16,427 nucleotides of DNA from an uncultured Lachnospiraceae bacterium (lineage in GTDB: Bacteria; Bacillota; Clostridia; Lachnospirales; Lachnospiraceae): the NCBI GenBank assembly GCA_902782815.1, contig CACZOS010000096.1, positions 1 through 16,427 on the forward strand, written 5' to 3'. This document shows positions 1 through 15,209 of this stretch, piece after piece. Position numbers and translations under genes: made by a program. Below the pieces are notes generated by a model, which was not told where the DNA came from, did not search any database, and saw only the letters and a list, made by a program, of their open reading frames with translations. Position 1 is the first letter of the stretch; each line of letters starts with the position of its first letter.

Positions 1-1
1 C

Positions 2-952: not shown

Positions 953-983
953 GTCGGACTGCGATTGATATTTTACGGATAAT

Positions 984-1016
984 AAAAGCTCCCGAAGTTG
1001 TCTTCGGGAGCTTTTT
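984..1016 (+). terminator. Rho-independent terminator after the GGGtGRT gene
   Basis: A perfect 14-bp stem (984-997 with 1002-1015) closes a 4-base loop (TTGT). The stem core is GCTCCCGAAG and it is followed by a run of five T. It sits 31 bases after the stop codon of the GGGtGRT gene and only 33 bases before the next start. The flanking A run also lets it act on the opposite strand, but no minus-strand gene ends here. Confidence 0.93.
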
Positions 1017-1049
1017 GACCTGAATCCCGTTATAAGAGAGGGAAGAGAT

Positions 1050-1517
1050 ATGGATCACGCGGAGAAAGCGAAAAAACTGTTTATGGAGGGTTATAACTGT
1101 GCCCAGGCTGTGGCCTGCGCCTTTACAGATCTTACCGGACTGGATGAGGAGACAAGCGCCCGTATGGCCTCCTCTTTTGGAGGAGGCATGGGAAGGCTCA
1201 GGGAAGTCTGCGGGACCGTCAGCGGGGCCCTTCTGGTTCTGGGTATGCTGCACGGATACGAAGATCCCACGGATCAGGAAGCAAAAAAAGCCCATTATGC
1301 TCTTGTCCGCGAATTTGCCCGGCGTTTCCGGCAGATAAACGGGACGATCATCTGCAGGGAACTCCTTGAGGGAGTCAGGGTAAGACCGGGTGATGACCCT
1401 GAGCCGCGGACGCGGGAATACTACGCCTGCCGTCCCTGCCTTCGCCATGTGGGTGAGGCTGCGGCCATCGTGGATGAATTGCTTGAAAACGGCTTTCAGG
1501 GGCATGAAGTCTCATGA
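1050..1517 (+). CDS. C_GCAxxG_C_C family protein (putative redox protein)
   Basis: This is a 155-residue protein of the C_GCAxxG_C_C family, small proteins with spaced conserved cysteines that are suspected of redox or metal-binding roles. Visible family features are YNCAQAV (C17), the Gly-rich block FGGGMGRLREVCGTVSGA (residues 43-60, C54), ICRELL (C102) and a C-terminal ACRPC (C127, C130). The family's usual GCAxxG reads CGTVSG here. There is no signal peptide, so it is probably cytosolic. The ATG is preceded by GAGAGGGAAGAGAT, a reasonable ribosome site. The TtcA-like thiolation gene follows after 32 bases on the same strand, so the two are probably co-transcribed. Because that neighbour is expected to carry an Fe-S cluster, an electron or sulfur transfer role is possible but is inference only. 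I found no clear promoter in the 33 bases after the upstream terminator. Confidence 0.85.
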   Translation: MDHAEKAKKLFMEGYNCAQAVACAFTDLTGLDEETSARMASSFGGGMGRLREVCGTVSGALLVLGMLHGYEDPTDQEAKKAHYALVREFARRFRQINGTIICRELLEGVRVRPGDDPEPRTREYYACRPCLRHVGEAAAIVDELLENGFQGHEVS

Positions 1518-1535
1518 GTATTTGACGGTAGAGTT

Positions 1536-1552
1536 AAGAGGACGGAGAATTG
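1536..1552 (+). promoter_or_regulatory. Ribosome binding site that sets a TTG start
   Basis: AAGAGGA at 1536-1542 lies 7 bases before TTG at 1550. An in-frame TAA at 1535-1537 bars any earlier start, and the first in-frame ATG lies inside the PP-loop region at 1709. The only other early candidate is GTG at 1580, which has a poor ribosome site. TTG is therefore the best start for the TtcA-like gene. Confidence 0.75.
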
Positions 1553-2392
1553 AGAGAAAGTACAGATTTTCAAAAAGAAGTGGAGCAGGGTATACGCAAA
1601 ACATTCCATAAACGCCTGTTTACCCCTTTTGTCAAGGGAATCAACCGATACCGTCTGGTGGAGGAGGGGGACAGGATTGCCGTTTGTATTTCCGGAGGAA
1701 AGGATTCCATGCTTATGGCCAAACTTTTCCAGGAATTAAAGCGGCATGACAAATTTCCCTTTGAACTGGAATTTTTGGTGATGGATCCCGGATACAGCCG
1801 GGCTAACCGCCTGGCTATTGAGGATAATGCCCGTATGCTGGGTGTTCCCATTACCATATTTGAGACCGAGATCTTTGACGCAGTATATGATATCGAAAAG
1901 TCTCCCTGCTATCTCTGTGCCAGGATGAGGAGGGGGTATCTTTACAGCAATGCCAGGAAACTGGGATGCAATAAGATTGCTTTGGGACACCACTATGACG
2001 ATGTGATCGAGACGATCCTTATGGGAATGCTTTACGGGGCCCAGGTCCAGACCATGATGCCCAAGCTTCACAGCACCAATTTTGAAGGAATGGAACTGAT
2101 CCGTCCCCTGTATCTTCTGCGTGAGGAGGATATCATCCGGTGGGCTGCCCATCACGGACTTCACTTTCTGCAGTGTGCCTGCCGGTTTACCGAAGGATGT
2201 TCCCACACCAGGGAAGACGGGACCTCGGAATCAAAAAGAATGGAGACCAAACAGATCATCGCAAGGATGAAACAGTTTAATCCCCATGTGGAATCGAATA
2301 TATTCAACAGTGTGTCCAATGTGAACCTGAGTACGGTCATTGCCTATAAAGATAAGGAAGGAATGAAACATAACTTCCTGGATGAATACTAG
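1550..2392 (+). CDS. TtcA-like PP-loop ATPase, putative tRNA 2-thiolation enzyme
   Basis: This 280-residue protein belongs to the PP-loop (N-type ATP pyrophosphatase) superfamily, TtcA group. TtcA enzymes activate a tRNA cytidine with ATP and replace its oxygen with sulfur, using a [4Fe-4S] cluster held by three cysteines. The PP-loop is SGGKDS at 48-53. The cluster motif CYLC is at 120-123 and is followed by ARMRRGYLY, as in TtcA. The LGHHYDD motif is at 145-151. E. coli TtcA has its third ligand near residue 222; here three Cys fall in that region (C209, C211, C217), so the exact ligand is uncertain. It starts with TTG, which may limit translation. The gene lies 32 bases after the C_GCAxxG_C_C gene. 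The substrate (C32 of tRNA or another base) cannot be read from sequence, so I leave the symbol empty. Confidence 0.85.
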   Translation: MRESTDFQKEVEQGIRKTFHKRLFTPFVKGINRYRLVEEGDRIAVCISGGKDSMLMAKLFQELKRHDKFPFELEFLVMDPGYSRANRLAIEDNARMLGVPITIFETEIFDAVYDIEKSPCYLCARMRRGYLYSNARKLGCNKIALGHHYDDVIETILMGMLYGAQVQTMMPKLHSTNFEGMELIRPLYLLREEDIIRWAAHHGLHFLQCACRFTEGCSHTREDGTSESKRMETKQIIARMKQFNPHVESNIFNSVSNVNLSTVIAYKDKEGMKHNFLDEY

Positions 2393-2415
2393 GCTGCTGC
2401 CTCAAAGAGGCTGGA

Positions 2416-3228
2416 TCAGTACACCAGGATATAGCCTCCGTTAGCTTTAATAGATGTATAGTATAAGCTGCGGCTTTTAGATTTTGTGGGTACCATGTAA
2501 TGCACCAGACTGCTCATCTTGGTATATTTAATCCGCTGGTTGGTTCCGGACCAGAGCCTGGTAGCGGAGTCCGCCACGATTACATTCCCGGTATTCGTCA
2601 TGCCGAGAAGGGCCATGGTGTGTTTTGTTGTGGCCCATTTTTTATCATATTTTCTGGAGATCCTTCCATTGGTCTGCCGGTGATTATTGACTTCGATGAT
2701 CACCGGTTTTCCTTTTCTCAGATGATTCTCGATTTCTTTTACCGCTTTGGCATCCTTAAAGTTGCGGACATATTTTGATCTGATCCCGCAGTAAGAAAGA
2801 ATTCTGGTGATTCCATATAAGGAAACCGGCATCTGTTTGGCTGGGCGTTTCGAATAGTTTGCCCTCCACTTCTTCAGGCCGAAAACCTTCTTTTCCAGGG
2901 TCTGATAGGTCATGGTCGGTGTATAGTCGGCATATTTGGGAGAATGGGCAGTAAGGATTGTGGTCAGGGCACTTACCGCACATCCATGGATCGCGACATA
3001 ACTTTTTTCACTCAATGTCGAGGCTCCCTGGGAGAAAACGTGATAGGAACGGGTTGTCCCGTTGGCACTGTTCACATCCACCACATATTCGTCTATGTTG
3101 GTATCCTGCGGCAGCTTCGCGTAAGGGGTGGTGATCCCTGTGACGGCAGCGGATGCCTCAAAGGAGAAAAGCAGGGCCGCGGCCAGTATCGTGGAAAAGA
3201 TATGTTTAATTTTATTGGATCTAAACAT
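2416..3228 (-). CDS. Secreted C39-like cysteine peptidase
   Basis: This 270-residue protein has a signal peptide (positively charged start, hydrophobic stretch at about 10-24, probable cleavage near SAA at 26-28). The mature part looks like a papain-fold peptidase of the C39-like (Peptidase_C39_2) type. The candidate catalytic Cys is C83 in HGCAVSALTTIL, the His is H203 in KHTMALLGM and the Asp is D220 in VIVADSA, in the right order and spacing. The usual GCGP around the Cys reads GCAV, and I do not see the Gln that normally forms the oxyanion hole just upstream, so the substrate may differ or activity may be altered. No ABC exporter or bacteriocin gene is nearby, so it is unlikely to be a leader peptidase. 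The start has GGAGG seven bases upstream. It converges with the TtcA-like gene, with 23 bases between the stops. Confidence 0.72.
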   Translation of the reverse strand: MFRSNKIKHIFSTILAAALLFSFEASAAVTGITTPYAKLPQDTNIDEYVVDVNSANGTTRSYHVFSQGASTLSEKSYVAIHGCAVSALTTILTAHSPKYADYTPTMTYQTLEKKVFGLKKWRANYSKRPAKQMPVSLYGITRILSYCGIRSKYVRNFKDAKAVKEIENHLRKGKPVIIEVNNHRQTNGRISRKYDKKWATTKHTMALLGMTNTGNVIVADSATRLWSGTNQRIKYTKMSSLVHYMVPTKSKSRSLYYTSIKANGGYILVY

Positions 3229-3271
3229 TGTTTATCCTCCGTATATCATCTGTTTTTTGCCATGTTGTTCC

Positions 3272-3300
3272 ATTATACATGAATAACCCGGAAGAGTCCA
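3272..3300 (-). promoter_or_regulatory. Predicted sigma-A promoter of the C39-like peptidase gene
   Basis: Read on the minus strand, a perfect TATAAT -10 (3277-3272) lies 17 bases from a TGGACT -35 (3300-3295, four of six consensus bases). Transcription would start around 3265, giving a leader of about 37 bases with GGAGG before the ATG. Confidence 0.6.
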
Positions 3301-3341
3301 GTTCTTTTGTCTGTTTTGTGAATTCTGACGGAAAGGGATTC

Positions 3342-3370
3342 TTGTCATTACTTAAGGTATATGTTACCAT
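3342..3370 (+). promoter_or_regulatory. Predicted sigma-A promoter of the DUF554 gene
   Basis: TTGTCA at 3342-3347 and TACCAT at 3365-3370 are separated by 17 bases. A TG one base before the -10 gives an extended -10. The start codon lies about 48 bases downstream of the -10. Confidence 0.5.
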
Positions 3371-3417
3371 GACAATGATTATTGCAGTCGGAATAAAAGA
3401 GGAAAAGAGGTAGAGAA

Positions 3418-4146
3418 ATGCCGATCGGAGTGCTGGTCAATGTATTGAGTGTCATATTCGGCGGGATAGTGGGAAGCCTGGCGGGACATAAGCTGACAGA
3501 GGAATTCAAAGAAGGACTCAATTCCGTTTTCGGCGTATGTGCTATGGCTATCGGAATCAGTTCCATCGTCCTTATGACAAATATGCCGGCAGTGATCTTT
3601 GCGGTGATCGCCGGTACAGCCATCGGCCTTCTTCTTCATCTGGGAGAAAAGATCAACCGGCTTGGGGAGATGATGATGCATGTCATGGAAAAGATTCTCA
3701 GGTTGGACAGAGGGGATGAGGATGAGGCCGGGAGAAACCTTCTGGTGACCACCATAGTCCTTTTTTGCTGCAGCGGGACGGGAATCTATGGGTCAATGGT
3801 GTCAGGGATGACCGGTGACCACAGTATCCTGCTTGCCAAATCTGTTCTGGATTTTCCTACTGCCATGATTTTTGCCTGTTCTCTCGGTTTGGTGGTCGCT
3901 TTGGTTGCTGTTCCTCAGCTGGCAGTTTTTCTTGTACTTTTCTTTCTGGCAAAACTGATCTACCCCTTGTGCAGTCCGGAGATGATCAATGATTTTAAAG
4001 CATGCTGCGGAATTCTGCTTCTTGCTACCGGCTTCCGCATTGCAAGGATAAAAAGCTTTCCCATTGCGGATATGATTCCTGCCATGATCCTGGTTATGCC
4101 GGTGAGCCATTTGTGGACAAACTATATTATCCCTCTTCTGGGTTGA
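3418..4146 (+). CDS. DUF554 family integral membrane protein
   Basis: This 242-residue hydrophobic protein matches the DUF554 family (YdfK/YqgA-like), whose function is unproven. The start MPIGVLVNVLSVIFGGIVGS is typical: a first membrane helix with small residues. Further hydrophobic segments lie at about 36-54, 57-75, 108-125, 148-182, 195-207 and 214-230, giving about seven helices. Small-residue motifs (GGIVGSLAG, GTAIGLLLHLGEKI, FCCSGTGIYGSM) suggest tight helix packing, as in a transporter or channel, but no substrate can be assigned. A charged loop (DRGDEDEAGR, 97-106) separates the two halves. The length is normal for the family. It is alone in its unit: its own promoter lies upstream, and its stop codon sits inside a shared palindromic terminator. 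Confidence 0.85.
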   Translation: MPIGVLVNVLSVIFGGIVGSLAGHKLTEEFKEGLNSVFGVCAMAIGISSIVLMTNMPAVIFAVIAGTAIGLLLHLGEKINRLGEMMMHVMEKILRLDRGDEDEAGRNLLVTTIVLFCCSGTGIYGSMVSGMTGDHSILLAKSVLDFPTAMIFACSLGLVVALVAVPQLAVFLVLFFLAKLIYPLCSPEMINDFKACCGILLLATGFRIARIKSFPIADMIPAMILVMPVSHLWTNYIIPLLG

Positions 4147-4198
4147 TAAGGTATAAAAAAACGTTTCCTTTCGGAAACGTTTTTTTATACCTTATCAA
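4143..4198. terminator. Perfect 26-bp palindromic terminator shared by two converging genes
   Basis: The arms 4143-4168 and 4173-4198 are exact reverse complements over 26 bp around a TTTC loop. The core is ACGTTTCC with flanking A7/T7 runs, so it works as an intrinsic terminator in both directions. The stop codon of the DUF554 gene (TGA, 4144-4146) and that of the L,D-transpeptidase gene (TGA on the minus strand, 4197-4195) are symmetric parts of the two arms. Confidence 0.93.
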
Positions 4199-4974
4199 TA
4201 GGAAATGACGGTAGTTCTCTTTGGGATTTTCTGATAGATATATTTTGCGTCTTTGTCATAAAGGCGGATACATCCGTTGGATCCCGGCGCACCCAATTCC
4301 GGGTAATAGTATCCTCCACCGTAGGCTTTTTTTCGATGAATTCTGGTATGAAAGGCGTTCCTTCCTTTAAAGCGGGTGATGTAAGAAAGATACCGGTTGT
4401 AGTAATTCCACCTTTTCTCCTTCCTGCCGACCTTGAATACTCCCTGGGGAGTACGGCGCAGATGACTGCCCGCTGTGCAGGGATAGGTTTTGATCAGTTT
4501 CCATTTCCCTTTTTTCCCTTTAAAGATATTGACTTCCTGGGTATAAAGGCTGATCCAGATCAGAAATTTTGTCGAACTCTTGTATCCGTTGACGAAAGCC
4601 AGTTTCTGGGAGGTGTTATATTTGAGTCTTGTAAAGTTGCAGGAAGTGTAGACCATAAATTTCTGTTGGACATAGTAAAACCCGTTATCATAACGTACAT
4701 ACAGGTAGCCAAGCTTATTATTCCTTGAAAGGATCTCCATCTGTGTTCCTGCGGGAATCTCCAGGACAGGCTGGCGAAAGTACTTATCCTGATAAAGGAA
4801 AGTGTTTTTTGTATTATGCCCGTTATAGGTGATGGTCCGGACCCGGTCGCTTAACTGATTTGCCTGCTCCCCTGTATCCTGTACCGAAGTGGCGCTTACC
4901 TTTACGGGGCTCAGGATAAAAAGGAAGACAATCGCAGCAATGATAAAGAAAGAGAATCTTGCACTGTATCTCAT
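4195..4974 (-). CDS. L,D-transpeptidase (YkuD domain), secreted or membrane-anchored
   Basis: This 259-residue protein carries a YkuD catalytic domain in its C-terminal half. Such enzymes make 3-3 cross-links in peptidoglycan or attach other molecules to it through an active-site Cys. The active-site signature is present: H209 in AFHTRI, then S232-N-G-C235-I-R237. The upstream TPQGVF block (175-180) is also typical. An N-terminal hydrophobic stretch (8-22) is a signal peptide or anchor. The region 45-110 looks like an SH3-like wall-binding domain (YVRYDNGFYYVQQKF), which is inference from its beta-rich pattern. The mature protein is rich in Lys, Arg and Tyr. It lies 38 bases downstream of the PHP-domain gene on the same strand, preceded by AAAGGAT, so the two are probably co-transcribed. 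Confidence 0.87.
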   Translation of the reverse strand: MRYSARFSFFIIAAIVFLFILSPVKVSATSVQDTGEQANQLSDRVRTITYNGHNTKNTFLYQDKYFRQPVLEIPAGTQMEILSRNNKLGYLYVRYDNGFYYVQQKFMVYTSCNFTRLKYNTSQKLAFVNGYKSSTKFLIWISLYTQEVNIFKGKKGKWKLIKTYPCTAGSHLRRTPQGVFKVGRKEKRWNYYNRYLSYITRFKGRNAFHTRIHRKKAYGGGYYYPELGAPGSNGCIRLYDKDAKYIYQKIPKRTTVISY

Positions 4975-5012
4975 CAGAGATTATCCTTTCGTTTTCAAAC
5001 TTTTTTCGTTTT

Positions 5013-5885
5013 TTAAAGTCCGGGAAATCCTTCCAGTACGGAGGGAGGGACATTCAGGTTCCCGGTTCCCCGGAAAAGTCCGATGTCCGGTTTGCTGAAC
5101 CCGTGATAGTCAGATCCTCCGGTGATACGGAGGTTGTATTTTTCGGCCAGGGACCGGAAGCGGTCGGTATCTTTCTGCTTATTCCTGCTGTAGTATACTT
5201 CCAGGCCGTCCAGCCCCGAATTATGCAGGTTCCGGATCAGCTCTTCCAGCTCTCCTTTGTCCAGTTTGGTATAGAGTACGGGATGGGCCAGGACGGCTAT
5301 GCCCCCGCTGGAATGGATCAGACGGATCACTTCCTCAAGAGTGGGGCGGATCCTTTCCACATAACAGGGTCTTCCTCTGTTGAGGTATCTCTGGAAAGCT
5401 TCCTCAACACTGGATACATAGCCCATCTTTATCATATGCATGGCGATAGCCGGTCTCCCCACGGAGGAATCGGAAGTGAGCGGTTCGATATCCCTTGGGA
5501 ATATTTTCATTCCCATCGTGTTCAGTCTCTCCAGTATCCGCATGTTCCGGATATCACGACTGTGACGGAACTCCTCCAGTCTTTCCCGAAGTTCTTCGTT
5601 GGTGAAATCAATCCCATAGCCCAGCATATGGATGGTCTGTCTGATTCCGTTCTCTTTCTGAAAATAAGTGGAAAACTCCACGCCGCCTATGGCATGGACC
5701 CTGGAAGGGTATTTAGAGGCTTCGTCAAGAAATTCGGGAATGCCAGAAACGGTATCATGATCCGTGAGGGCCATGGTTACCGGAGCGGAATATCTGTCTG
5801 CCCACTCTGCCCCGAGTCCGATGATCTCTGCCGGACTCTTGCTTCCGTCGGAGGCGGTGGAATGGATATGTAGATCGATCATCAT
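5013..5885 (-). CDS. PHP-domain metal-dependent phosphoesterase
   Basis: This 290-residue protein is a stand-alone PHP domain of the YciV/TrpH type. Characterised relatives hydrolyse 3',5'-nucleoside bisphosphates or trim short RNA or DNA 5' ends with divalent metals. Metal-ligand motifs appear in the usual order: H6-I-H8 with D13, TDHDT (41-45), E70 in GGVEFS, H201 in VLAHPV, and D259/H261 in SDYHGFSKPDIG near the end. An inserted helical region (about 95-195) is standard for the group. There is no signal peptide, so it is cytosolic. The start is the first of two adjacent ATG codons, with AAGGA about nine bases upstream. It heads a probable two-gene unit with the L,D-transpeptidase. A TATGAT on the minus strand (5924-5919) could be its -10, but I see no good -35. 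The exact substrate cannot be read from the sequence. Confidence 0.87.
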   Translation of the reverse strand: MMIDLHIHSTASDGSKSPAEIIGLGAEWADRYSAPVTMALTDHDTVSGIPEFLDEASKYPSRVHAIGGVEFSTYFQKENGIRQTIHMLGYGIDFTNEELRERLEEFRHSRDIRNMRILERLNTMGMKIFPRDIEPLTSDSSVGRPAIAMHMIKMGYVSSVEEAFQRYLNRGRPCYVERIRPTLEEVIRLIHSSGGIAVLAHPVLYTKLDKGELEELIRNLHNSGLDGLEVYYSRNKQKDTDRFRSLAEKYNLRITGGSDYHGFSKPDIGLFRGTGNLNVPPSVLEGFPGL

Positions 5886-5997: not shown

Positions 5998-6026
5998 TTG
6001 TCAGAAAATCCGAAAAGTGATACAAT
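5998..6026 (+). promoter_or_regulatory. Predicted sigma-A promoter of the acidic DnaB-like gene
   Basis: TTGTCA (5998-6003) and TACAAT (6021-6026) are spaced by exactly 17 bases. Each differs from consensus at one position. Transcription would start near 6033, giving a leader of about 50 bases that ends in AAAGGGGA (6069-6076), a strong ribosome site nine bases before the ATG at 6086. Confidence 0.72.
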
Positions 6027-6085
6027 AAATAAGATTAGGAGTCTGTGAAAAAGACGATAATATATTTGAAAGGGGATACACATAG

Positions 6086-9000
6086 ATGGAAGACATTATC
6101 AAAGCTTTGCTTGACGTTGTCCGGGCGCAGCATTCGGCGACCGAGGGAACGGATGAAGCACCTTTTGATATGGATGATGTTCTGGACATGGCGATGAATC
6201 TTCTGGGCAGACCTGAGGAAAAGGGAGAAGAGGAAGCCATGGTGGACGAGATCCAGAAGATGGTGGAGTCTTTGGCTCCTGATATTTTTCCTCCCAAGAC
6301 ATTTGAGCAGATGGATGATTCGGAAAAGGTCATCTCTGCCGCAAATATGATCGAGAACCGTCTTATGAGAGGTAACGAAAATTCTGATCGGAATCCGGAC
6401 CGGACTGCTGATTTTTCCACTTCCCAGGAGTCCTATTCCTACGGGGAAGCTGAGGAGGATGAGCAGGAGGAGCCGGATGTAGGGGATCTGAATGATCTGA
6501 TCTATAAAAACTTTATGGAGATGATGGGTCTTTCCGCCCCCCAGGTAGAGTATCCTTTCGACCGGAGTCAGATCGTGTACGGGAAAGAGAAATCCGCCAC
6601 GGAGATGCTGGCTGAGGAAGAAGAGGAGAGAAGGAGAAGAGAAGAGGAGGATGTTCAGAGAGACAGGAAGCTGTCTGCTCTGGAACTGGCGCAGAATGTG
6701 ATCGATCAGGATGAGGCAGCTCATGCCAAGGAAGAGTATGTCCCCAAACCCATCGAACAGCCGGTGGCCAGGTCGGCCTCCCAGATGGCGAATGAGGCGA
6801 TCCGAAAAGCGCAGGAAGAGGACAGAATGAAACTTGAGATAGAGAAACAGGCAGAAGCCCTGATGGCAGAAGCCAGGAAACGGGGACAGGACCCCATGGA
6901 TTTCATGCTCCACCAGCAGGAGATCCTCCGCTATATGGAGAAGAACAGCGATGAACTGGTATCTTTTGAAGACTATGAGGATCTGAGTCCCGAGGAGAAG
7001 CTGGAGATCGAGAGGCAGATCCACATAGACCGGCAGATTGCCGAGGGAGTTGACCCGGATCAGGTGGATACCAATGTTCCGGAACAATATATCCCGGAAG
7101 GATTGAAAGAACAGTCTCCCGCTCCCCTGCCCGAGAAGGAGACGACCTTTGATGAGGATGTTCTGCGGGCTTTATCCCAGCAGGTTCTCAGCGAGAATTC
7201 CGATATGATCCTCTCGGAAAACGAGAATGAAGACATGGTGAGTCTGCAGGAGGAATTATTCCAGAACCTGAAGAGGATGATGAACGGAAGCGGCACACCT
7301 GTTCCTCAGGAAAATGTGGCTTCCCTGCTCTCCCAGGCAGCCAGCAATTTCATGGCCGGAAATGATGAAGACCAGGAGGAGGCCGGTGAGGATTCCGCTC
7401 CGGCAATGGAGGAGAAAGAGATTCCCGAAGAAACGGACCATGATACCGATAAGGATGCAGGCAGTCCTGTTACTCCTCCGGCTGAGGAAAAACCTTTATT
7501 TACCAGGCCTATGTCCGCTGTAGAGCTTGCCCTGGCCGCCCAGAAGGGGATGAAACCCGGGCAGGAAGAGGAAGAGCAAAAGAAGGCGGAGGCTGAACTT
7601 ATCGAGGAGATTGACCTGTCCTTTGATGAGATGGATGATCTTTTTGAGGAGGACAGGCCGGAAGAGGAACCACTGGAGGATATTAAGCCGGAAGAAGATG
7701 AACCGCCAAAAGAGATTTCCGGAAGTGAAGCTTCCGGGGAGGAAGCAGAAGAAGGGGAACCGTCTGCAGATCAAGTCCCCGGGGAAGAGGCATCCGAAGA
7801 GGAACCTTCCGGAGACGAACCCGCCCGGGATGAGACAGGGGAAGAGAAATCGTCCGAAGGTGAAAATTCCCTCGAGGAATCGTCCGAAGAGGATACAATT
7901 GAAGAGAAAATTCCCGAAGAGGATGAATACGAATACATTGACCCGGATGAGCTGGTCCTGGGTGATCATACCCAGGCAGAGATTGACGAGGCTATGGCTA
8001 ATCTGAGCAGCCTGGGCCTGGAAGGTGAAGTATTTGAGAGAGCAAAAAGGATGCTCCTTTTAGAACTTGCCGGTTCCGAAGCCGTCCTGGACGCGTGGCT
8101 TAAGGAACAGGAACAGACAGGGAAAAAGAAAGCGGATGTTCCTGCTTTTGAAGAGGATAGTTTGGATGATTTATCGGACTTTGATGAAGATCTTTTTGAA
8201 AAAGAGCTTGACCAGGCAATTGATAAGGATTTTGAAGAAAAAGATTCCGGGGATTGGGAAAACGGTAAAGAAAAACCGGAAGAAATCGGAGAAGAGACCG
8301 GAGAAGAAGGAACCGATGAACCGGAGATCCTTGACTTCCGGGGTGACATCGAGGAGGTCGGATACGAGGAGGCGGAAGAAATCTATACCGAGACGGATTC
8401 TGACCAGGGCCTGGAAGAAATACCGGAAGTCTCAGAAGAAAAAAATGAAGAAGTAGAACAGAAGAAGACCCGGATACCCCGGGGAAATAAAGGACGTAAG
8501 GGTGTAGTTCACAAGAGGGAGAAAACGTCCCGGGCCGAAGAGGAAAAGACTCCGACTCCGCAGAAGGAAACCGGTGCGGAGGAGAGAGGATATCAGATTT
8601 CTGTCCGTAAACCCTTTATCCTGAAGAATTCCACCAGCTTCATGGACAAGCTGGAGGATTTCATCACGGAAAACCAGGAGAACAGAAAGCTCAGTACAGG
8701 ATTTAAAAAGCTGGATGGGCTTCTAAGATTCGGACTTCATAAAGGAAGCTATTTCATTGATGCCCAGCCTCAGTTCCTGAAGAATGCCTTCATGCAGCAG
8801 ATCGCCGATCAGGCGGCAGAAAGCGGTGTGGATGTTCTCTATATCTCTACGGAGCTTTCCCGCTATGATCTTATGGTGGATTCCATCTCCAGGCTCAGCT
8901 ACGAGATGAACGGCCATGATCCGTCCAAAGCCCACTCTGTCATGTCCATCATGACCGGAGAAGAGGGAGCCGGCCTCTCCCAGCTTTCCGACGAGCTCAA

Positions 9001-9547
9001 CTGGTATCGGGGAAGGATCAGTGAGCACCTGTTCATTCTTGACCAGGAAGCCGTGGATGAATTTATCGATGGCATGGAAGAAGAGGCTTCCGCAGGAGCG
9101 ATTCTGGAGGAACTTATCCGGTCCATCGTGACGGAGGGATCCCACAAACCGGTTGTCTTTATCGATAATATCGAGAACATTCTGTCGGTGGAGGATTCCG
9201 AAGATATGAAACCCCTCATGGATGGAATCGGTAAGCTGGCTAAAGAGCTGAACATTCCCATCATTATGTCTTACGGGTATGAGCAGGCGGAGAACGAGCA
9301 GGAAATGTCCTATGAGGAACACCTGTATCACGAATCTCTCGGAAATATGTGTGATGTTTATCTGGAGTTGAAGTACGCGGATATGATCACCGAAGATTCG
9401 GTGGAACTGACCATCGATGATATCCGGGAGATGGCGGAAGACGGGGAAAGCCTTCTGTTCGATGTGCAGATTTATCGCAACCGCAGACCTATGCGGGCTT
9501 CCTGCCAGATTCAGGGAACACCCAAATTTAATTTCTTTGAAGAATAA
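6086..9547 (+). CDS. Large acidic protein with C-terminal degenerate DnaB/RecA-like ATPase domain
   Basis: This 1153-residue protein has no assigned function that I recognise. Residues 1-100 are helical. Residues 165-345 are charged and probably coiled coil. A SAxELA-like motif recurs at 170, 197, 230 and 477. Residues 545-614 are an acidic five-residue repeat. A small helical segment (633-675) follows, then more acidic sequence and a short basic linker (796-816). From about 850 to the end the sequence matches a replicative-helicase (DnaB) C-terminal domain: LSTGFKKLDGLL (869-880), VLYISTEL with E923 at the SLEM glutamate, Walker B VVFIDN (D1027), SYGYEQ (1062-1067) in place of SQLNR, and YRNRRP (R1131) near the RNG motif. 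The Walker A equivalent, AQPQFLKN (893-900), keeps the Lys but lacks the Gly and Ser/Thr of GK(T/S), so ATP hydrolysis is doubtful. It is monocistronic, with its own promoter and terminator, and has no signal peptide or membrane segment. The gene call is certain; the domain call is by motif reading. Confidence 0.82.
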   Translation: MEDIIKALLDVVRAQHSATEGTDEAPFDMDDVLDMAMNLLGRPEEKGEEEAMVDEIQKMVESLAPDIFPPKTFEQMDDSEKVISAANMIENRLMRGNENSDRNPDRTADFSTSQESYSYGEAEEDEQEEPDVGDLNDLIYKNFMEMMGLSAPQVEYPFDRSQIVYGKEKSATEMLAEEEEERRRREEEDVQRDRKLSALELAQNVIDQDEAAHAKEEYVPKPIEQPVARSASQMANEAIRKAQEEDRMKLEIEKQAEALMAEARKRGQDPMDFMLHQQEILRYMEKNSDELVSFEDYEDLSPEEKLEIERQIHIDRQIAEGVDPDQVDTNVPEQYIPEGLKEQSPAPLPEKETTFDEDVLRALSQQVLSENSDMILSENENEDMVSLQEELFQNLKRMMNGSGTPVPQENVASLLSQAASNFMAGNDEDQEEAGEDSAPAMEEKEIPEETDHDTDKDAGSPVTPPAEEKPLFTRPMSAVELALAAQKGMKPGQEEEEQKKAEAELIEEIDLSFDEMDDLFEEDRPEEEPLEDIKPEEDEPPKEISGSEASGEEAEEGEPSADQVPGEEASEEEPSGDEPARDETGEEKSSEGENSLEESSEEDTIEEKIPEEDEYEYIDPDELVLGDHTQAEIDEAMANLSSLGLEGEVFERAKRMLLLELAGSEAVLDAWLKEQEQTGKKKADVPAFEEDSLDDLSDFDEDLFEKELDQAIDKDFEEKDSGDWENGKEKPEEIGEETGEEGTDEPEILDFRGDIEEVGYEEAEEIYTETDSDQGLEEIPEVSEEKNEEVEQKKTRIPRGNKGRKGVVHKREKTSRAEEEKTPTPQKETGAEERGYQISVRKPFILKNSTSFMDKLEDFITENQENRKLSTGFKKLDGLLRFGLHKGSYFIDAQPQFLKNAFMQQIADQAAESGVDVLYISTELSRYDLMVDSISRLSYEMNGHDPSKAHSVMSIMTGEEGAGLSQLSDELNWYRGRISEHLFILDQEAVDEFIDGMEEEASAGAILEELIRSIVTEGSHKPVVFIDNIENILSVEDSEDMKPLMDGIGKLAKELNIPIIMSYGYEQAENEQEMSYEEHLYHESLGNMCDVYLELKYADMITEDSVELTIDDIREMAEDGESLLFDVQIYRNRRPMRASCQIQGTPKFNFFEE
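7718..7927 (+). repeat. Diverged 15-bp tandem repeat encoding an acidic pentapeptide array
   Basis: Residues 545-614 of the acidic protein divide cleanly into fourteen five-residue units of the form (S/P/x)-x-(E/D/G)-E-x, for example SGEEA, PGEEA, SEEEP, SGDEP, SEEDT, PEEDE. At DNA level each unit is 15 bases. The units have diverged, so the array is old rather than a recent exact expansion. The period also shows in the neighbouring frame as recurring Lys/Arg-rich blocks ending in Pro. Confidence 0.7.
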
Positions 9548-9565: not shown

Positions 9566-9602
9566 TAAAAGCCGTTCTTCCAATCAGGGAGAACGGCTTT
9601 TA
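9566..9602. terminator. Bidirectional terminator between the acidic DnaB-like gene and the LCP gene
   Basis: A perfect 13-bp stem (9566-9578 with 9590-9602), extended inward by a T-G and two C-G pairs, closes a 5-base loop. The core is GCCGTTCT, with A4 on the left and T4 on the right. It lies 18 bases after one stop codon and 18 bases before the other, serving both converging genes. Confidence 0.9.
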
Positions 9603-9620: not shown

Positions 9621-10763
9621 TTAAGGATATATACCTATGCTGTCGGTGACCACTTCAATCTTGCTACTGATTTTTCCCAGTTCTTCCGTGGGCTCATAGC
9701 CGGAAGTTCCGAAAAGATATTCATGAGCGGATGCCGCGTTGGAGGCGGCAGTAAGGGGGAACCCGTAATAAATGCCCCCGTAACGTTCATCCTGTGAGTT
9801 GAAGGGATAAGCCTGGGAATCCACGATCTTACAACGCAGGAGTCTGGTGCTCAGGCCGGTCATCTCCCCGGCGGACAGACTGGTCACGCACTGAGGAAGA
9901 ACAGTGTTGATGAGTTTGTTGAGTTTCCAGGGTTTTTTCTTTACCGCCCGGACCAGCCCTTCCACCACCAGCCGCTGGTGCCCGGCCCTGGCATGGTCGC
10001 CGCCCTCCATGTAGCGAATACGGGAATAAGCGACTGCCTGGTTGCCGTCAAACACTGCCCGGAAGGGGTATTCCTCAGGTTTTTCAAAAGTGGGAGAATC
10101 CCCGCCGTTGATATGGTTCATGTTTTTGATATAGTCATTCAGGTTTTTTCTTTCCTTGTCCGACTGAACAGTGAGTGAGATGCCGCCCACGATGTCTACA
10201 GCATCAGCAAGGGCTTTGAAGTTTACCGTGGCAAAATCTGTGATATCCAGATCCAGATTCCGGTTGATGGTACTGATGGCCAGTTCCGGGCCTCCGTAGG
10301 AATACGCCGCATTGATCTTGTCATATTGACCGTTTATGCTGACGTAGGTGTCCCGGTAAATGGACATGAGTTTCACTTTCCCGCTCTTTTTGTGGATACT
10401 GGCTACGATGATACAGTCTGTTCTTGAACCGGTATCCCGGATGACATTATCCTGACTGTCCACACCGAAAAGAGCGATATTCTGATAGGAACCCATATGT
10501 TTATCCGATTCTCTCGCTCCCTCGTTTATGACTACAGCAGATTCATCCAGGGGATAGCGGCTGACCTTGCCCAGGGTATATCTGAGTCCTGCCCGGACAC
10601 CCAGAACCAGGAGGATCAGGATTACCGGAAGGAGGACAAGGCGCGGCAGACAGCCTTTTTTCTTCTTCTGATTCTTCTCTGCCCTATGGACAGAATCGGC
10701 CTGCTTCCATGAAGCAGACCGAGGGGTATCATTCCTGTAGGAAAGGTTTCTTTTTTTCATCAT
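9621..10763 (-). CDS. LytR-CpsA-Psr (LCP) family cell-wall glycopolymer ligase
   Basis: This protein of about 380 residues belongs to the LCP family. These membrane enzymes move wall teichoic acid, capsule or other glycopolymers from undecaprenyl carriers to peptidoglycan. A Lys/Arg-rich cytoplasmic start leads into one membrane helix (about 38-60), then an extracellular LCP domain. Family motifs include LFGVD (98-102), GSRTD (112-116), SIYRDTYVSI (134-143, with the key Arg and Asp), DKINAAYSYGG (148-158), DAVDIVGGI, and YSRIRY then GDHARAGHQR (255-264), whose arginines bind the lipid pyrophosphate. I chose the start at 10763 (MMKKRN), which has GGAG five bases upstream, over an ATG seven codons earlier. 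It lies 122 bases downstream of the sugar-1-phosphate transferase on the same strand, with no terminator between, so the pair probably starts and finishes one surface glycopolymer. Confidence 0.9.
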   Translation of the reverse strand: MMKKRNLSYRNDTPRSASWKQADSVHRAEKNQKKKKGCLPRLVLLPVILILLVLGVRAGLRYTLGKVSRYPLDESAVVINEGARESDKHMGSYQNIALFGVDSQDNVIRDTGSRTDCIIVASIHKKSGKVKLMSIYRDTYVSINGQYDKINAAYSYGGPELAISTINRNLDLDITDFATVNFKALADAVDIVGGISLTVQSDKERKNLNDYIKNMNHINGGDSPTFEKPEEYPFRAVFDGNQAVAYSRIRYMEGGDHARAGHQRLVVEGLVRAVKKKPWKLNKLINTVLPQCVTSLSAGEMTGLSTRLLRCKIVDSQAYPFNSQDERYGGIYYGFPLTAASNAASAHEYLFGTSGYEPTEELGKISSKIEVVTDSIGIYP

Positions 10764-10772
10764 TTCATCTCC
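10764..10772 (-). promoter_or_regulatory. Ribosome binding site deciding the LCP start
   Basis: On the minus strand GGAG (10772-10769) stands five bases before ATG at 10763. The upstream in-frame ATG at 10784 has no purine-rich site in front of it, so the longer form with seven extra residues is less likely. Confidence 0.65.
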
Positions 10773-10885
10773 GATTATAAACATATTCCCGGGCCGGCTG
10801 TTTTTTTCTTATTGTAATCCCGGCTCCGGGATCAGACCACAGGCTGCCTTTATCCGAATTTACGGGGGAGATGGGGACAGCGGTC

Positions 10886-12301
10886 TTAATAGGCATTTTT
10901 ATTGACGAATCCTTTGAAGACTGTCAGGAAAAGAATCTTGATATCAAATCCCATGGTCCAGTTTTCGATATAGAAAATATCGTGTTCGATCCTGCCCAGG
11001 ATGGAGGTGTCCCCCCGGAATCCGCAGACCTGGGCCCAGCCGGTCATGCCGGGACGGACCTGGTGCTTGATCATGTAACGGGGGATTTCTTCTTTGAACT
11101 TCTCCACAAACTGAGGACGCTCGGGGCGCGGACCGATCAGGCTCATATCGCCTTTGAGCACATTGAAGAGCTGCGGAAGCTCATCGATGCTGGTCTTACG
11201 GATCACTTTTCCCACGGAGGTGACCCTGGGATCGTTCTGGGTCGTCCACCCCTCTTTCTCCTTGTCGACGGTCTGGACACCCATGGACCGGAATTTATAC
11301 ATTTTAAAGGGTTTGTTATGCAGGCCGATCCTTTCCTGACAGAAGAGGATCGGTCCGGGAGAGTTCCGCTTTACGGCGATGGCGGTGACCAGCATGACAG
11401 GAGAGAAGATCACGATACAGATAAGGGATCCCACAATGTCCATCAGACGTTTGATGAATCGGTTGAAACTGTTGGTCAGGGGGACATTGCGGATATTGAT
11501 CACAGGGAGACCGTTCAGGTCCTCCGTCACCGGATGGGTGGGGATGAACTTGTAGTAATCGGGAATCAGCTTGGTGTGTACGCCACTCTTTTCACAAATA
11601 TTTACGATAGCTTCCAGTTTATGGTATTCCCGCAGACTGAGAGCGATGGCCACTTCGTCCAGAGAATTCTCGATAAGGTATCCCTGGAGCTGATGGATCT
11701 TCCCAATACAAGGGATATCTTTATAGGAAAAACCTTCGGGTACATTGTCCGCAAAGATGCCATGGACATAGTAACCCCATTGGGGATTTGCCTTGATCCG
11801 GTCGATATATGCCCTGGAAGCCGCACTTTCCCCCACCACGATGATGTGCTTTAAGTTGCGGCCCTGCTTCCTTTCTCTCTGAAGGATCAGCCTGATGACC
11901 AGCCTTACCAGGAGAGACAGAAACATGCAGACAATATAGAAGATGATCAGAAGACTTCTCGGCACATGCTCAATCTTCAGAAAGAAAATGTAGATGAAGA
12001 AGAAAAGCATTCCGCAGGAATTCGCTTTAAATAAGGCCGAGATCTCCGTCCAGGGGTGCTGGAAACGTTTTGGCTTATAGAGCCCGAAGTAGGCGTAAAG
12101 GATGAGAAATACGGGAACGATGACCAGGAGCATGCTCTGGTACTGGGAGAGAAGCCGGTAATAGCGGGTGGGGGGCATGAAAGGTTTCAGAAAATCGATT
12201 TTAAACCTTATTACATAGCTGAGACAAAATGAGCAGTAGATCACTATGGCATCAAGTACAATGTGCAATCGATTTAGATTCTTCTGATTCTGTTTAATCA
12301 T
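10886..12301 (-). CDS. Polyprenyl-phosphate sugar-1-phosphate transferase (WcaJ/WbaP-like)
   Basis: This 471-residue membrane protein is an initiating glycosyltransferase. It moves a sugar-1-phosphate (glucose or galactose in known relatives) from a UDP-sugar to undecaprenyl phosphate, the first step of exopolysaccharide or capsule synthesis. Hydrophobic helices lie at about 12-32, 53-73, 95-110 and 113-140. A Rossmann-like middle domain starts with HIIVVGESAASRAYI (152-166). The catalytic domain runs from 281 to 471: membrane re-entrant segment LMDIVGSLICIVIFSPVML, FKMYKFRSM (332-340), the Asp-Glu dyad in SIDELPQ (D373, E374), GPRPERP (390-396), RPGMTGW and a C-terminal basic end. The length is typical of the five-segment WcaJ type. 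The ribosome site is GGGAGG six bases before the ATG, and a good promoter lies upstream. No other polysaccharide genes appear in the window apart from the downstream LCP gene, so the rest of the pathway must be elsewhere. Confidence 0.9.
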   Translation of the reverse strand: MIKQNQKNLNRLHIVLDAIVIYCSFCLSYVIRFKIDFLKPFMPPTRYYRLLSQYQSMLLVIVPVFLILYAYFGLYKPKRFQHPWTEISALFKANSCGMLFFFIYIFFLKIEHVPRSLLIIFYIVCMFLSLLVRLVIRLILQRERKQGRNLKHIIVVGESAASRAYIDRIKANPQWGYYVHGIFADNVPEGFSYKDIPCIGKIHQLQGYLIENSLDEVAIALSLREYHKLEAIVNICEKSGVHTKLIPDYYKFIPTHPVTEDLNGLPVINIRNVPLTNSFNRFIKRLMDIVGSLICIVIFSPVMLVTAIAVKRNSPGPILFCQERIGLHNKPFKMYKFRSMGVQTVDKEKEGWTTQNDPRVTSVGKVIRKTSIDELPQLFNVLKGDMSLIGPRPERPQFVEKFKEEIPRYMIKHQVRPGMTGWAQVCGFRGDTSILGRIEHDIFYIENWTMGFDIKILFLTVFKGFVNKNAY

Positions 12302-12380
12302 AATTGCCTCCCACAGCGTTTTCTGTTATGATAGACAGGATGAAATAGATTTTGCCGGATCCTGTTATATTCTCCATAAG

Positions 12381-12409
12381 ATTATACATTCCCAACCGGT
12401 ATTCTACAA
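12381..12409 (-). promoter_or_regulatory. Predicted sigma-A promoter of the sugar transferase-LCP unit
   Basis: Read on the minus strand, a perfect TATAAT -10 (12386-12381) lies 17 bases from TTGTAG (12409-12404), a weak -35. Transcription would start near 12374, giving a leader of about 73 bases before the ATG at 12301. Confidence 0.6.
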
Positions 12410-12459
12410 GGTTTTTCTTTTTTTCGACACAAAGCAGACACATTTTTTTCACATATTGC

Positions 12460-12468
12460 TGTTATGAT
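12460..12468 (+). promoter_or_regulatory. Possible extended -10 promoter of the htrA-like gene
   Basis: TGTTATGAT contains an extended -10 (TGn) and TATGAT, one base from consensus. There is no convincing -35 at the proper distance. The leader would be about 60 bases, with GGAAAGGATGAGG just before the ATG. The same ten bases CTGTTATGAT also occur at 12323-12332. Confidence 0.4.
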
Positions 12469-12535
12469 TGGCTCCGAAAAAGGAAACAGAGAAAAAATCT
12501 TTTTTGAAAACTTTTTACGGAAAGGATGAGGATAA

Positions 12536-14101
12536 ATGAGCGAATTTGAAAACGGCTATAAAGAGGGAAACGAAGGTTTCGGGGAACAGGATTCCGATGT
12601 CCGGCAGGACAATGAGGCATCTGTCTGGGCCTACGGCGCAGATCCGGCTGAAGAGCAGCAGGAGCAGCCCCGGGAAAGATTTCATTATTCAAGGGAAGGA
12701 GCCGGATCATCCGGCACCGGTTTTTCTCCCAACAGGCCGGACAGGAAAACCAGAAATAAAAGCGGTGGCAGTAAGATCCTGAAACTCATCGCGTCGGCTT
12801 TCCTTTTCGGTCTGATCGCCGGGGCGACCATGATCGGTGTGGAAGCGGCCAAAGACAGGTTCTTTCCTTCTTCCATCACCCAGATAGAAACCACGGACAA
12901 AGCCGCAGACAGTACGGAAGAGTCAACGGAGAAGGCAGATAACGAAAGCAATACTGCCGCGGTTACTCCCCAGACTTCGGTTACCGCTACGGACGTGTCC
13001 GGTGTGGTTCAGCAGGTGATGCCTTCTGTGGTATCCATCACCTCTACCATCACCAGCAGCAATTATTTTTACGGGACCACACAGTCCCAGGGAGCAGGAT
13101 CGGGATTTATCCTTTCCAAGGATGCCGATAAGCTGTATATTGCAACCAATAACCATGTTGTGGCGGATGCAACAGCCTTAACCGTAGGTTTTGCGGACGG
13201 GTCAACGGCAGAAGCAGAGATTGTGGGAACGGATTCGGATGCCGATCTGGCTGTGATCTCTGTCAAAGCGGAGAAGATCTCCAAGGAGACTGCTTCAGTT
13301 ATCAAGGTTGCCGCACTGGGTAATTCCGATTCCCTTAAAGTGGGGGAACCTGTTATTGCCATCGGTAATGCTCTTGGTTACGGACAGTCTGTCACCACCG
13401 GTGTTGTAAGTGCCAAAGACAGGGAAGTGTCCTTCACTGACGGAACCATGGTCCTGCTGCAGACCGATGCGGCCATCAATCCCGGAAACAGCGGCGGTGT
13501 TCTGATCAACCAGCGCGGTGAGGTCATCGGCATTAACAATGCCAAGCTGGAGGATACCTCCGTGGAAGGAATGGGCTATGCCATACCTATTACCACAGCC
13601 AAAGGAATCCTTGATGACCTGATGAATTCCACAAATATCACAGAGGCTGAGACTTCCTTCCTGGGTGTGGTTGGCCGTACCATTGACAGCACCTATTCCC
13701 AGACTTTAGGCATGCCCACCGGAATCTATGTCACCCAGGTGATCTCCGGATCTCCGGCCGAACAGGCAGGGATAAGTGCGGGAGATGTTATCGTGGCGTT
13801 TGACGGAAATAAAGTTTCCACCATGGACGGGCTGAAAGCAAAACTTGCCCGAAAAGCTGCCGGAACCAAGATCAGTCTGACCGTTAAGCGGGCAAACCAG
13901 AACGGAGAATATGAGGAACAGACCATAGATGTGACCCTGGGTAAGAAAAGTGATTTTGCCGATGCCGCCGCCAATCCGGATAATCAGGAAGAAGGCCGGC
14001 AGGAGCAGGAAAACGGAAGCCAGGGTAACGGAGACCGGGATAACGGGGGTTACTATTTCAACAATCCTTACGATTTCTTCTTCGGCAACGGCAACTGGTA
14101 A
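12536..14101 (+). CDS. Membrane-anchored HtrA/DegP-like serine protease (S1C) with PDZ domain
   Basis: This 521-residue protein is an HtrA-type envelope quality-control protease, which degrades misfolded proteins outside the membrane. It has a polar, acidic cytoplasmic part (1-79), one membrane helix (81-104), a Ser/Thr/Glu-rich linker, a trypsin-like domain and a single PDZ domain (about 375-470; GIYVTQVISGSPAEQAGI opens it). The catalytic triad is complete: H207 in NNHVVAD, D237 in DSDADLAV and S319 in NPGNSGG. The tail after the PDZ domain is low in complexity (Glu, Gln, Gly, Asn) and ends in an aromatic stretch (YYFNNPYDFFFG). The lipid kinase gene starts 22 bases later, so the two form a unit. 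I give no symbol because htrA, htrB and degP paralogues cannot be told apart here. Confidence 0.93.
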   Translation: MSEFENGYKEGNEGFGEQDSDVRQDNEASVWAYGADPAEEQQEQPRERFHYSREGAGSSGTGFSPNRPDRKTRNKSGGSKILKLIASAFLFGLIAGATMIGVEAAKDRFFPSSITQIETTDKAADSTEESTEKADNESNTAAVTPQTSVTATDVSGVVQQVMPSVVSITSTITSSNYFYGTTQSQGAGSGFILSKDADKLYIATNNHVVADATALTVGFADGSTAEAEIVGTDSDADLAVISVKAEKISKETASVIKVAALGNSDSLKVGEPVIAIGNALGYGQSVTTGVVSAKDREVSFTDGTMVLLQTDAAINPGNSGGVLINQRGEVIGINNAKLEDTSVEGMGYAIPITTAKGILDDLMNSTNITEAETSFLGVVGRTIDSTYSQTLGMPTGIYVTQVISGSPAEQAGISAGDVIVAFDGNKVSTMDGLKAKLARKAAGTKISLTVKRANQNGEYEEQTIDVTLGKKSDFADAAANPDNQEEGRQEQENGSQGNGDRDNGGYYFNNPYDFFFGNGNW

Positions 14102-14123
14102 TCGGTAATCAAAGAGGGAAAAT

Positions 14124-15098
14124 ATGATGAAGAAAGTTCTGATGATCGTTAATCCCATCTCCGGACGCAGCCAGGTGGGAAGATATCTGCTGGATATCAC
14201 CAACCAGTTTTCCCGGGAGGGGATATTCCTTACCACTTATGTGACCCAGGCAAAATCGGATGCCTTCCGGAAAGCAAAGGCGGAGGCAGGGAATTATGAC
14301 ATCATTGCCTGCTCCGGCGGGGACGGCACCCTGGATGAAGTGGTGGCCGGGGTATCGAAATCGGGATATACTCCCAAGATCGGCTATATCCCTTCAGGCA
14401 GCACCAATGATTATGCCCAGAGCCTGCAGCTGCCGGCCGACATGGTGAGGTCGGCCCAGATCATTGTGGAAGGCCATGCCCTCACGGTGGATATCGGTAC
14501 CATCAGAGATATCGGGAAAACCAATGAGTGGTATTTTGTATATGTTGTTGCCTTTGGGGTCTTTTCCGATGTGTCCTACAGGACCAGCCAGGATATGAAA
14601 AATATGCTGGGGCATATGGCCTATGTGCTGGAAGGGGCCAAAAGCCTGCTGGATATCAAACCCTATCGCATGACCATCACCATTGATGATGACCAGGTCC
14701 TGGAAGGGGATTTTATCTACGGGATGGTGGCGAATTCGGAGTCTGTCGGAGGTGTCAATAATATTGCCGGCAACGATGTGGAACTGGATGACGGCTATTT
14801 TGAAGTGGTGCTGGTGCGCAATCCGGTCACTCCCTTTGACTGGCAGCCCATTATTTTCGGCCTTCTCAACAAGGAATCTGACGGAAAGCTCATCTACTAT
14901 CTGAAAGCCAGAAAAGTTCGTATCCAATGTGATCAGCCTGTGGCCTGGACAGTGGACGGAGAGGACGGGGGGAGCCATGATAATGTGGAGGTCGTCGTCC
15001 ATGAAAAGATGCTGGATATATTTGTAGATAAGGATTATCTGAAACTTCTTCATAAAGATACCGGGACCGAAGATGAAAAGGGACCGGAAAATCTGTGA
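14124..15098 (+). CDS. YegS/BmrU-type lipid kinase (diacylglycerol kinase catalytic domain)
   Basis: This 324-residue protein is a diacylglycerol kinase-like lipid kinase, which phosphorylates a lipid such as diacylglycerol with ATP at the inner face of the membrane. Family motifs are present: NPISG (10-14) for the start of the nucleotide fold, SGGDGTLDEVV (64-74) as the ATP-binding loop, and IPSGSTNDYAQSL (89-101), where most relatives have P-x-GTxND. The C-terminal domain is beta-rich, includes VAWTVDGEDGG and ends in a polar tail. There is no membrane segment; such kinases bind the membrane peripherally. GAGGGAAAAT precedes two adjacent ATG codons and either may be used. It shares a unit with the HtrA-like gene. 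The true lipid substrate is not readable from sequence; recycling of diacylglycerol released in lipoteichoic-acid synthesis is one possibility. Confidence 0.9.
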   Translation: MMKKVLMIVNPISGRSQVGRYLLDITNQFSREGIFLTTYVTQAKSDAFRKAKAEAGNYDIIACSGGDGTLDEVVAGVSKSGYTPKIGYIPSGSTNDYAQSLQLPADMVRSAQIIVEGHALTVDIGTIRDIGKTNEWYFVYVVAFGVFSDVSYRTSQDMKNMLGHMAYVLEGAKSLLDIKPYRMTITIDDDQVLEGDFIYGMVANSESVGGVNNIAGNDVELDDGYFEVVLVRNPVTPFDWQPIIFGLLNKESDGKLIYYLKARKVRIQCDQPVAWTVDGEDGGSHDNVEVVVHEKMLDIFVDKDYLKLLHKDTGTEDEKGPENL

Positions 15099-15113
15099 TC
15101 TTTTATAAGAATT

Positions 15114-15183
15114 AAAGCCTGTTCTGAAATCTGTGCGGGGCCTTTTAAGGGGCCTTGCGCAGAATATTCAGAACAGGCTTTTT
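15114..15183. terminator. Long imperfect hairpin terminator between the lipid kinase gene and htpG
   Basis: The arms 15114-15128 and 15167-15181 are perfectly complementary over 15 bp (core GCCTGTTCTGAA). A second inner stem (about 15131-15142 with 15149-15163, containing GGGGCC on the right arm and some wobble pairs) stacks on top, giving a hairpin of nearly 70 bases. A T5 run follows on the plus strand. On the minus strand the T run is only three bases, so it should stop the lipid kinase transcript best. Confidence 0.85.
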
Positions 15184-15209
15184 CTTTACCGTTTTTATGT
15201 GGTCAGTTT

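Follow-up and report, generated by a model that had tools for sequence, protein, structure and literature searches.

DnaB-type domains form rings, and in DnaB the catalytic glutamate lies at the SLEM position and the arginine finger at the K-x-R near the C-terminus. To our knowledge, pseudoenzymes built on replicative-helicase folds have rarely been described in bacteria. The gene described here lies at positions 6086–9547 (+) of a 16,427-nucleotide stretch of DNA from an uncultured Lachnospiraceae bacterium (assembly GCA_902782815.1, contig CACZOS010000096.1), which is called the window throughout. Its open reading frame runs from ATG to stop over 1153 codons, and its product belongs to a putative pseudo-helicase family with two subfamilies, A (including the window protein) and B. 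Both have an N-terminal domain, at least two S-A-x-[EQ]-[LM]-A motifs and a DnaB-like fold that lacks an ATP site. With moderate confidence, the family is read as a conserved pseudo-ATPase scaffold, in which the N-terminal domain and the motifs would dock partners. The only names found for it in the databases used were a DnaB-domain label (P0045) and 'hypothetical protein' (P0145), and a search of open-licence PubMed Central papers by title or abstract start returned none on the family. P0045, an NCBI 'DnaB helicase C-terminal domain-containing protein', is a family member with 77% identity in the domain; its label looks automatic and is silent on the lost P-loop, the N-terminal domain and the motifs.

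The window protein resembles the C-terminal domain of DnaB (PF03796) in its RecA-type fold over residues ~866–1150, in the order of motifs and in the Walker B aspartate, and in subfamily A only also in the SLEM-type glutamate and the K-x-R arginine. Unlike DnaB, it has no GK[ST] P-loop and, in place of the DnaB N-terminal domain, an N-terminal domain of another kind and long arms. A gene for DnaB proper exists separately in the window's genome and was also present in each of the eight genomes searched, five of which carry the pseudo-helicase. RadA/Sms and KaiC-like ATPases belong to the same superfamily and gave NCBIfam matches below the cut-off around TGFKKLD and the P-loop. However, seven rows which we take to be RadA from their motif and length form a clade of their own (100/100), without the pseudo-helicase family, in a tree of 32 rows with long branches, from which the DnaB row G479b, which could not be cut, was left out.

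Outside the family, the highest profile scores were obtained by DnaB_C proteins with an intact GKT (L098, 108.5 bits; L099, 96.7 bits; L043, 89.5 bits), and P0146 and L100 reached 80.8 and 49.0 bits; RadA-like rows scored 24–43 bits and the genome's own DnaB 20.8 bits. The primase-helicase-like or stand-alone DnaB_C proteins L098, L099, L100 and P0146 are among the best-scoring ones outside the family, and the likeness includes the helix after the P-loop, which reads GKTTFCLQIADQIAKQ in L098 and LKNAFMQQIADQAAES in the window protein. They differ in retaining GK[TS] and, in three of the four (L098, L100 and P0146), in carrying a Toprim domain, joined in one of these three by a zinc finger, whereas the pseudo-helicase is chromosomal at a fixed locus. 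L099 (7253–8362, −) is a stand-alone 369-residue protein with, by eye, an integrase-like gene and a small helix-turn-helix regulator nearby, and its region is likely a prophage or integrative element. Because of the Toprim domains and the integrase-like neighbour, all four proteins are probably mobile. In the tree, the two subfamilies group as a single clade (100/100), and its joining with the mobile proteins is undecided (approximately unbiased test, p 0.42 for holding them together, for a group chosen post hoc, as L100 was left out after an earlier tree had been seen).

Loss of the ATP site in the DnaB-like domain

The C-terminal part of the gene contains the following features.

8591..9544 (+): pseudo-DnaB C-terminal domain, residues 836–1153, placed by structure and profile
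8759..8785 (+): altered Walker A slot DAQPQFLKN, residues 892–900, from the homologue alignment
8843..8857 (+): ISTEL, at the position of the DnaB SLEM glutamate (E923); E in 120/120 of subfamily A, D in 25/25 of subfamily B
9152..9169 (+): VVFIDN, Walker B aspartate retained (D1027); D in 145/145
9476..9487 (+): RNRR, at the DnaB K-x-R (arginine-finger) position; R in 120/120 of subfamily A, D in 25/25 of subfamily B

A preliminary description of this DNA, made from its letters alone, had proposed a DnaB-like C-terminal fold with a broken Walker A motif and without a DnaB N-terminal domain. Structure and profile indeed place the domain in the RecA/DnaB superfamily, and a Pfam scan of the protein gave DnaB_C as the sole match, with no DnaB N-terminal domain; profile comparison of the conserved islands upstream with seven DnaB N-terminal halves found no resemblance either (probabilities 0.5% or less; two of the nine DnaB loci gave no cut and were dropped).

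The broken Walker A was confirmed in homologues, as GK[ST] occurs in none of 145. For subfamily A, these were the best 120 of 4369 database matches with E at most 0.001, many of them near-copies. Subfamily B was found from a match in another genus (G213) and then among 26 database matches, of which 25 are full-length members (P0121–P0145) and the 26th, P0146, is the intact Toprim-DnaB_C protein already mentioned. All 120 listed subfamily A homologues have D, L, K and N at the G, G, K and T positions, so that the LKN singled out previously is fixed there, and the slot ends in LKN in 20/20 rows of the genus alignment. Subfamily B has A and D at the K and T positions in 25/25 and retains the second G in 21. 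The lesion differs between the subfamilies, and loss of the P-loop is common to both.

The C-terminal domain is under strong purifying selection. In 11 computed pairs, out of 28 possible among eight domains, nonsynonymous divergence (dN) was 0.03–0.19 while synonymous divergence (dS) was at least 1.3 or saturated, and with dN this far below dS the domain is not decaying. A single damaged copy or a decaying pseudogene, considered as an explanation, is countered by these values and by the invariant slot. The earlier idea that the fold serves as a binding or regulatory module stands in so far as the missing P-loop, the selection and the lack of a DnaB N-terminal domain make a binding or structural role likelier than a motor; that this role is probably a scaffold is what we infer beyond it.

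Alternatively, the protein could regulate or poison the replicative helicase as one of its subunits; its dead domain would join or cap rings of the cell's DnaB or meet the loader while the arms recruit other factors. It shares its fold with the true DnaB encoded in the same genomes, and the arginine-finger residue of subfamily A (120/120), together with the Walker B aspartate, could work in trans on the ATP site of a neighbour. This explanation is nevertheless considered unlikely, as subfamily B has D in place of both the arginine and the glutamate in 25/25 and the mechanism would not be common to both subfamilies; moreover, there is no DnaB N-terminal domain, and the DnaB of the window's genome receives a far lower family-profile score than the primase-helicase-like relatives. 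In a mixed ring, the arginine and the glutamate of subfamily A might still allow it to assist; subfamily B has lost both.

More doubtful is that the protein is an enzyme, active or gated by nucleotides, whose P-loop is non-canonical, with the near-invariant PQ[YF]LKN of subfamily A as a rewired nucleotide site. The lysine in 120/120, the hardly varying slot and the retained glutamate and aspartate are what such an enzyme would show, but subfamily A has lost both glycines and the threonine, and the exchange of lysine and threonine for alanine and aspartate in 25/25 of subfamily B means that the chemistry would not be family-wide.

As a side observation, the database protein P0066 (859 residues) has a pseudo-DnaB C-terminal domain joined to carboxyltransferase domains (PF01039, PF03255); it was seen on one contig only and is possibly a misassembly.

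Shared N-terminal domain and repeated motifs

Upstream of the DnaB-like domain, conserved parts were found at the following positions.

6086..6379 (+): N-terminal helical domain, residues 1–98, four predicted helices, residues 1–72 common to the second subfamily (structure model, hhalign)
6479..6610 (+): conserved island 2, residues 132–175, LNDLIYKNFMEMMGL...PFDRSQI; 76% of columns in 135–175 at least 80% identical
6674..6700 (+): S-A-x-[EQ]-[LM]-A motif, residues 197–205 (SALELAQNV), from the motif search
6773..7045 (+): motif module, residues 230–320 (SASQMANEA ... EARKRGQDP ... FEDYEDLSPEEKLEIER), from conservation and alignment to the second subfamily
7514..7540 (+): S-A-x-[EQ]-[LM]-A motif, residues 477–485 (SAVELALAA), subfamily A only, from the motif search
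7931..8125 (+): conserved island 4, residues 616–680, predicted three-helix unit; 80% conserved columns, predicted local distance difference test score (pLDDT) 72–90 over 621–680

The roughly 850 residues before the DnaB-like domain had been described as acidic, coiled-coil and repeat sequence, which overlooked a conserved N-terminal domain, the S-A-x-[EQ]-[LM]-A motif and the second subfamily. Among 22 subfamily A representatives, islands at residues 1–79, 135–175, 230–312 and 616–680 are conserved as strongly as the C-terminal domain; between them 11–17% of columns are conserved (at least 80% identical), with the exception of residues 176–229 (43%). The N-terminal domain is predicted as a block with pLDDT 79–90 up to residue 90 and 64 beyond, and its profiles from subfamilies A and B align with an hhalign probability of 97% (E 3e-11). 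A second shared region, residues 190–271, holds two S-A-x-[EQ]-[LM]-A motifs and ends in R-G...D-P in both subfamilies (probability 91.5%, E 9e-7). Island 2 has a pLDDT below 50 in part.

Before the C-terminal domain, three or four copies of the motif are present in 66/66 full-length subfamily A proteins (66 of the 120 listed, the others being shorter, under 1000 residues, or without the N-terminus) and two in 25/25 subfamily B proteins. The stringent form exceeds expectation from shuffles, as 0/2000 reached the observed count in each of four proteins. A scan of two genomes with the exact DNA pattern gave nine places, four of them inside the pseudo-helicase gene, and no other protein with a motif series, with a pattern that recovered just one of the three stringent copies in the gene of the window. 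The remaining places, rejected as carriers, were single matches in two longer frames looking like unrelated enzymes, a 61-residue frame and two R-A-x-Q-F-A sequences.

No subfamily A stretch outside the C-terminal domain is more conserved than island 4. A counterpart in the second subfamily was not found (hhalign 0.2%, not alignable), and scans of three pieces of the region before the C-terminal domain, island 4 included, found no Pfam family above the cut-off. One long VIA alignment (9oa1_A, residues 619–1149, root-mean-square deviation 22.4) prompted the idea that island 4 is a remnant of a DnaB N-terminal domain, which was rejected after hhalign against the DnaB N-terminal halves (0.1%). 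A helix-loop-helix repeat linking the N-terminal domain with residues 375–430 and the subfamily B equivalent was likewise rejected (hhalign probabilities of just 0.5–1.7%), and matches of the N-terminal profile to PDB sequences, namely two BurrH repeat proteins with no stretch passing alone and two weak others, were judged to be chance.

Since both subfamilies share the N-terminal domain, the motifs and the DnaB-like fold without an ATP site, a scaffold is the economical reading. The fold would derive from a helicase of DnaB type, probably one belonging to a mobile element, would no longer work by ATP hydrolysis and would serve as a fixed interface, that is, as a platform for binding or oligomerisation; partner proteins would dock on the N-terminal domain and on the short motifs repeated at intervals along flexible arms. 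Comparison of the subfamilies suggests that what matters is the fold together with the docking parts, rather than acidity or ATP chemistry. Given the fold, a connection with DNA or with replication of the chromosome is conceivable. Only tentatively, this can be extended to a lineage-specific bacterial pseudo-helicase family in which a DnaB-type fold, probably from a mobile element, was stripped of its ATP site and rebuilt as a multivalent hub through addition of the N-terminal domain and a series of S-A-x-[EQ]-[LM]-A motifs for docking; in Anaerobutyricum-like gut bacteria, this hub would serve a core function of the cell (replication, nucleoid or division). Two subfamilies that lost the P-loop differently and kept the same N-terminal domain and motif offer clear tests.

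Several points weigh against the scaffold. Subfamily A keeps the lysine, the SLEM-type glutamate, the Walker B aspartate and the K-x-R arginine in 120/120, which is compatible with some nucleotide-related or trans-catalytic role. A possible ring-forming helix at residues 849–863, the DnaB linker-helix position, appears in one low-confidence model and is absent in the other, so that oligomerisation has no structural support here. The search for other carriers of the motif was of limited sensitivity and may have missed some. An origin from a mobile element is suggested by profile scores, and the tree (p 0.42) leaves it open. Finally, the scaffold was deduced from sequences and structure models.

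Distribution and loci

Locus L034 is that of Anaerobutyricum hallii DSM 3353 at 76% identity, and the genus of the window is therefore probably Anaerobutyricum. The gene was found in 22/24 genomes of this genus, 21 with a domain match and one (G019) with a copy cut by the contig end. The two genomes without a match are not clean absences, as G003 is also without close PHP and LCP matches and the contig of G023 starts beside LCP. Almost every genome sampled from this butyrate-producing genus of the gut has the pseudo-helicase. A second genus carries the subfamily B gene in 3/3 genomes.

In a sample of 396 Lachnospiraceae genomes, the profile matched ten, three of which hold the pseudo-helicase family (the window's own genome, G005 and G213); the other seven matches are proteins with an intact GK[ST], four DnaB_C-like and three RadA-like by eye. 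Strong matches to the N-terminal profile were obtained in the same three genomes only, and those in six further genomes (E 0.007–0.009) were judged to be chance among 396. Within this sample, the pseudo-helicase is limited to two genera. Among 392 genomes of the class, 140 had a match; the further matches inspected (L098, L099, L100 and the rows of the score table) have GK[ST], and the remainder are mostly short and in frames of ~440–520 residues.

Among ten loci compared, the gene is flanked by PHP and LCP genes in four (L033, L034, L035, L051), and three (L031, L036, L038) have LCP on one side while the other is cut or without a PHP match; L032 and L037 end before LCP, and L050 belongs to the second subfamily. 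In the second genus, the gene lies upstream of tatD and ksgA in 3/3, with metG one or two genes upstream in two of the three. G444 has one extra gene before tatD, a membrane-protein-like gene (L075, 7070–7726, −) that is not in the G213 and G445 loci. The loci of the two genera are unrelated. At the metG–tatD site of six genomes (five from other genera, plus G005, whose copy lies elsewhere) no copy was found. In a comparison of methionyl-tRNA synthetases from 46 genomes, the second genus was 83% identical to Anaerobutyricum and 84% to G071 and G074, in whose genera no pseudo-helicase copy was found.

Occurrence in few genera at unrelated loci would also fit a helicase of phage or mobile-element origin that was domesticated and interferes with elements entering the cell, as a dominant-negative or decoy defence. 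The same holds for the best-scoring relatives with an intact site, which are DnaB_C proteins, three of the four carrying Toprim and one lying near an integrase-like gene. However, the gene is nearly universal in each genus and its locus is fixed wherever readable, which most defence genes are not, and PADLOC models gave no family at E 0.01 for P0001 and P0121, which makes this explanation quite improbable.

Acidic arms, gene signals and neighbours

The remaining features concern the variable arms and the gene as a transcription unit.

7046..7930 (+): variable, strongly acidic arm, residues 321–615, about two thirds with pLDDT <50, helices at 357–428; 17% conserved columns in 313–615
8126..8590 (+): second variable acidic linker, residues 681–835, mostly pLDDT <50 except helix 701–717; 15% conserved columns
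6086..9547 (+): whole gene, 1153 residues, N-terminal domain, motif module, acidic arm and pseudo-DnaB C-terminal domain; open reading frame, long frames intact in relatives
5998..6026 (+): promoter-like site of sigma-70 type, TTGTCA, 17 nucleotides, TACAAT, with TG preceding the second hexamer; 10/12 matches
6069..6075 (+): likely ribosome-binding site AAAGGGG, 10 nucleotides upstream of the ATG, read from the sequence
9567..9601 (+): 12-bp perfect inverted repeat followed by a T-rich stretch, a possible terminator between the pseudo-helicase gene and the convergent LCP gene, read from the sequence

The middle region of the window protein has a net charge of -155 over 758 residues and an isoelectric point of 4.1; an acidic DNA mimic had been among the earlier proposals. 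Acidity is confined to subfamily A (net charge -119 to -181, compared with 0 to -20 in 25/25 subfamily B proteins), which weakens the proposal and leaves it unsupported as a general principle, and as the acidic stretches are also among the least conserved parts (15–17% conserved columns), a DNA mimic is scarcely credible.

Both neighbours of the pseudo-helicase gene, a PHP-domain gene and an LCP gene, lie on the opposite strand. The promoter-like site, the ribosome-binding site and the inverted repeat with its T-rich end after the stop suggest that the gene is transcribed alone. The promoter-like site is a consensus match only, one of seven in the region compared with a mean of 3.4 (standard deviation 2.1) in shuffles, and the inverted repeat is absent from the output of the inverted-repeat scan, in which the loop limit was 8.

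The neighbours in the rest of the window (1–5885 and 9621–16427) look ordinary and include, besides PHP and LCP, a C_GCAxxG_C_C redox protein, a PP-loop protein, a C39-like peptidase and a YkuD L,D-transpeptidase. By eye, a sugar-phosphate transferase, an HtrA-like protease, a diacylglycerol-kinase-like protein and HtpG were further recognised.

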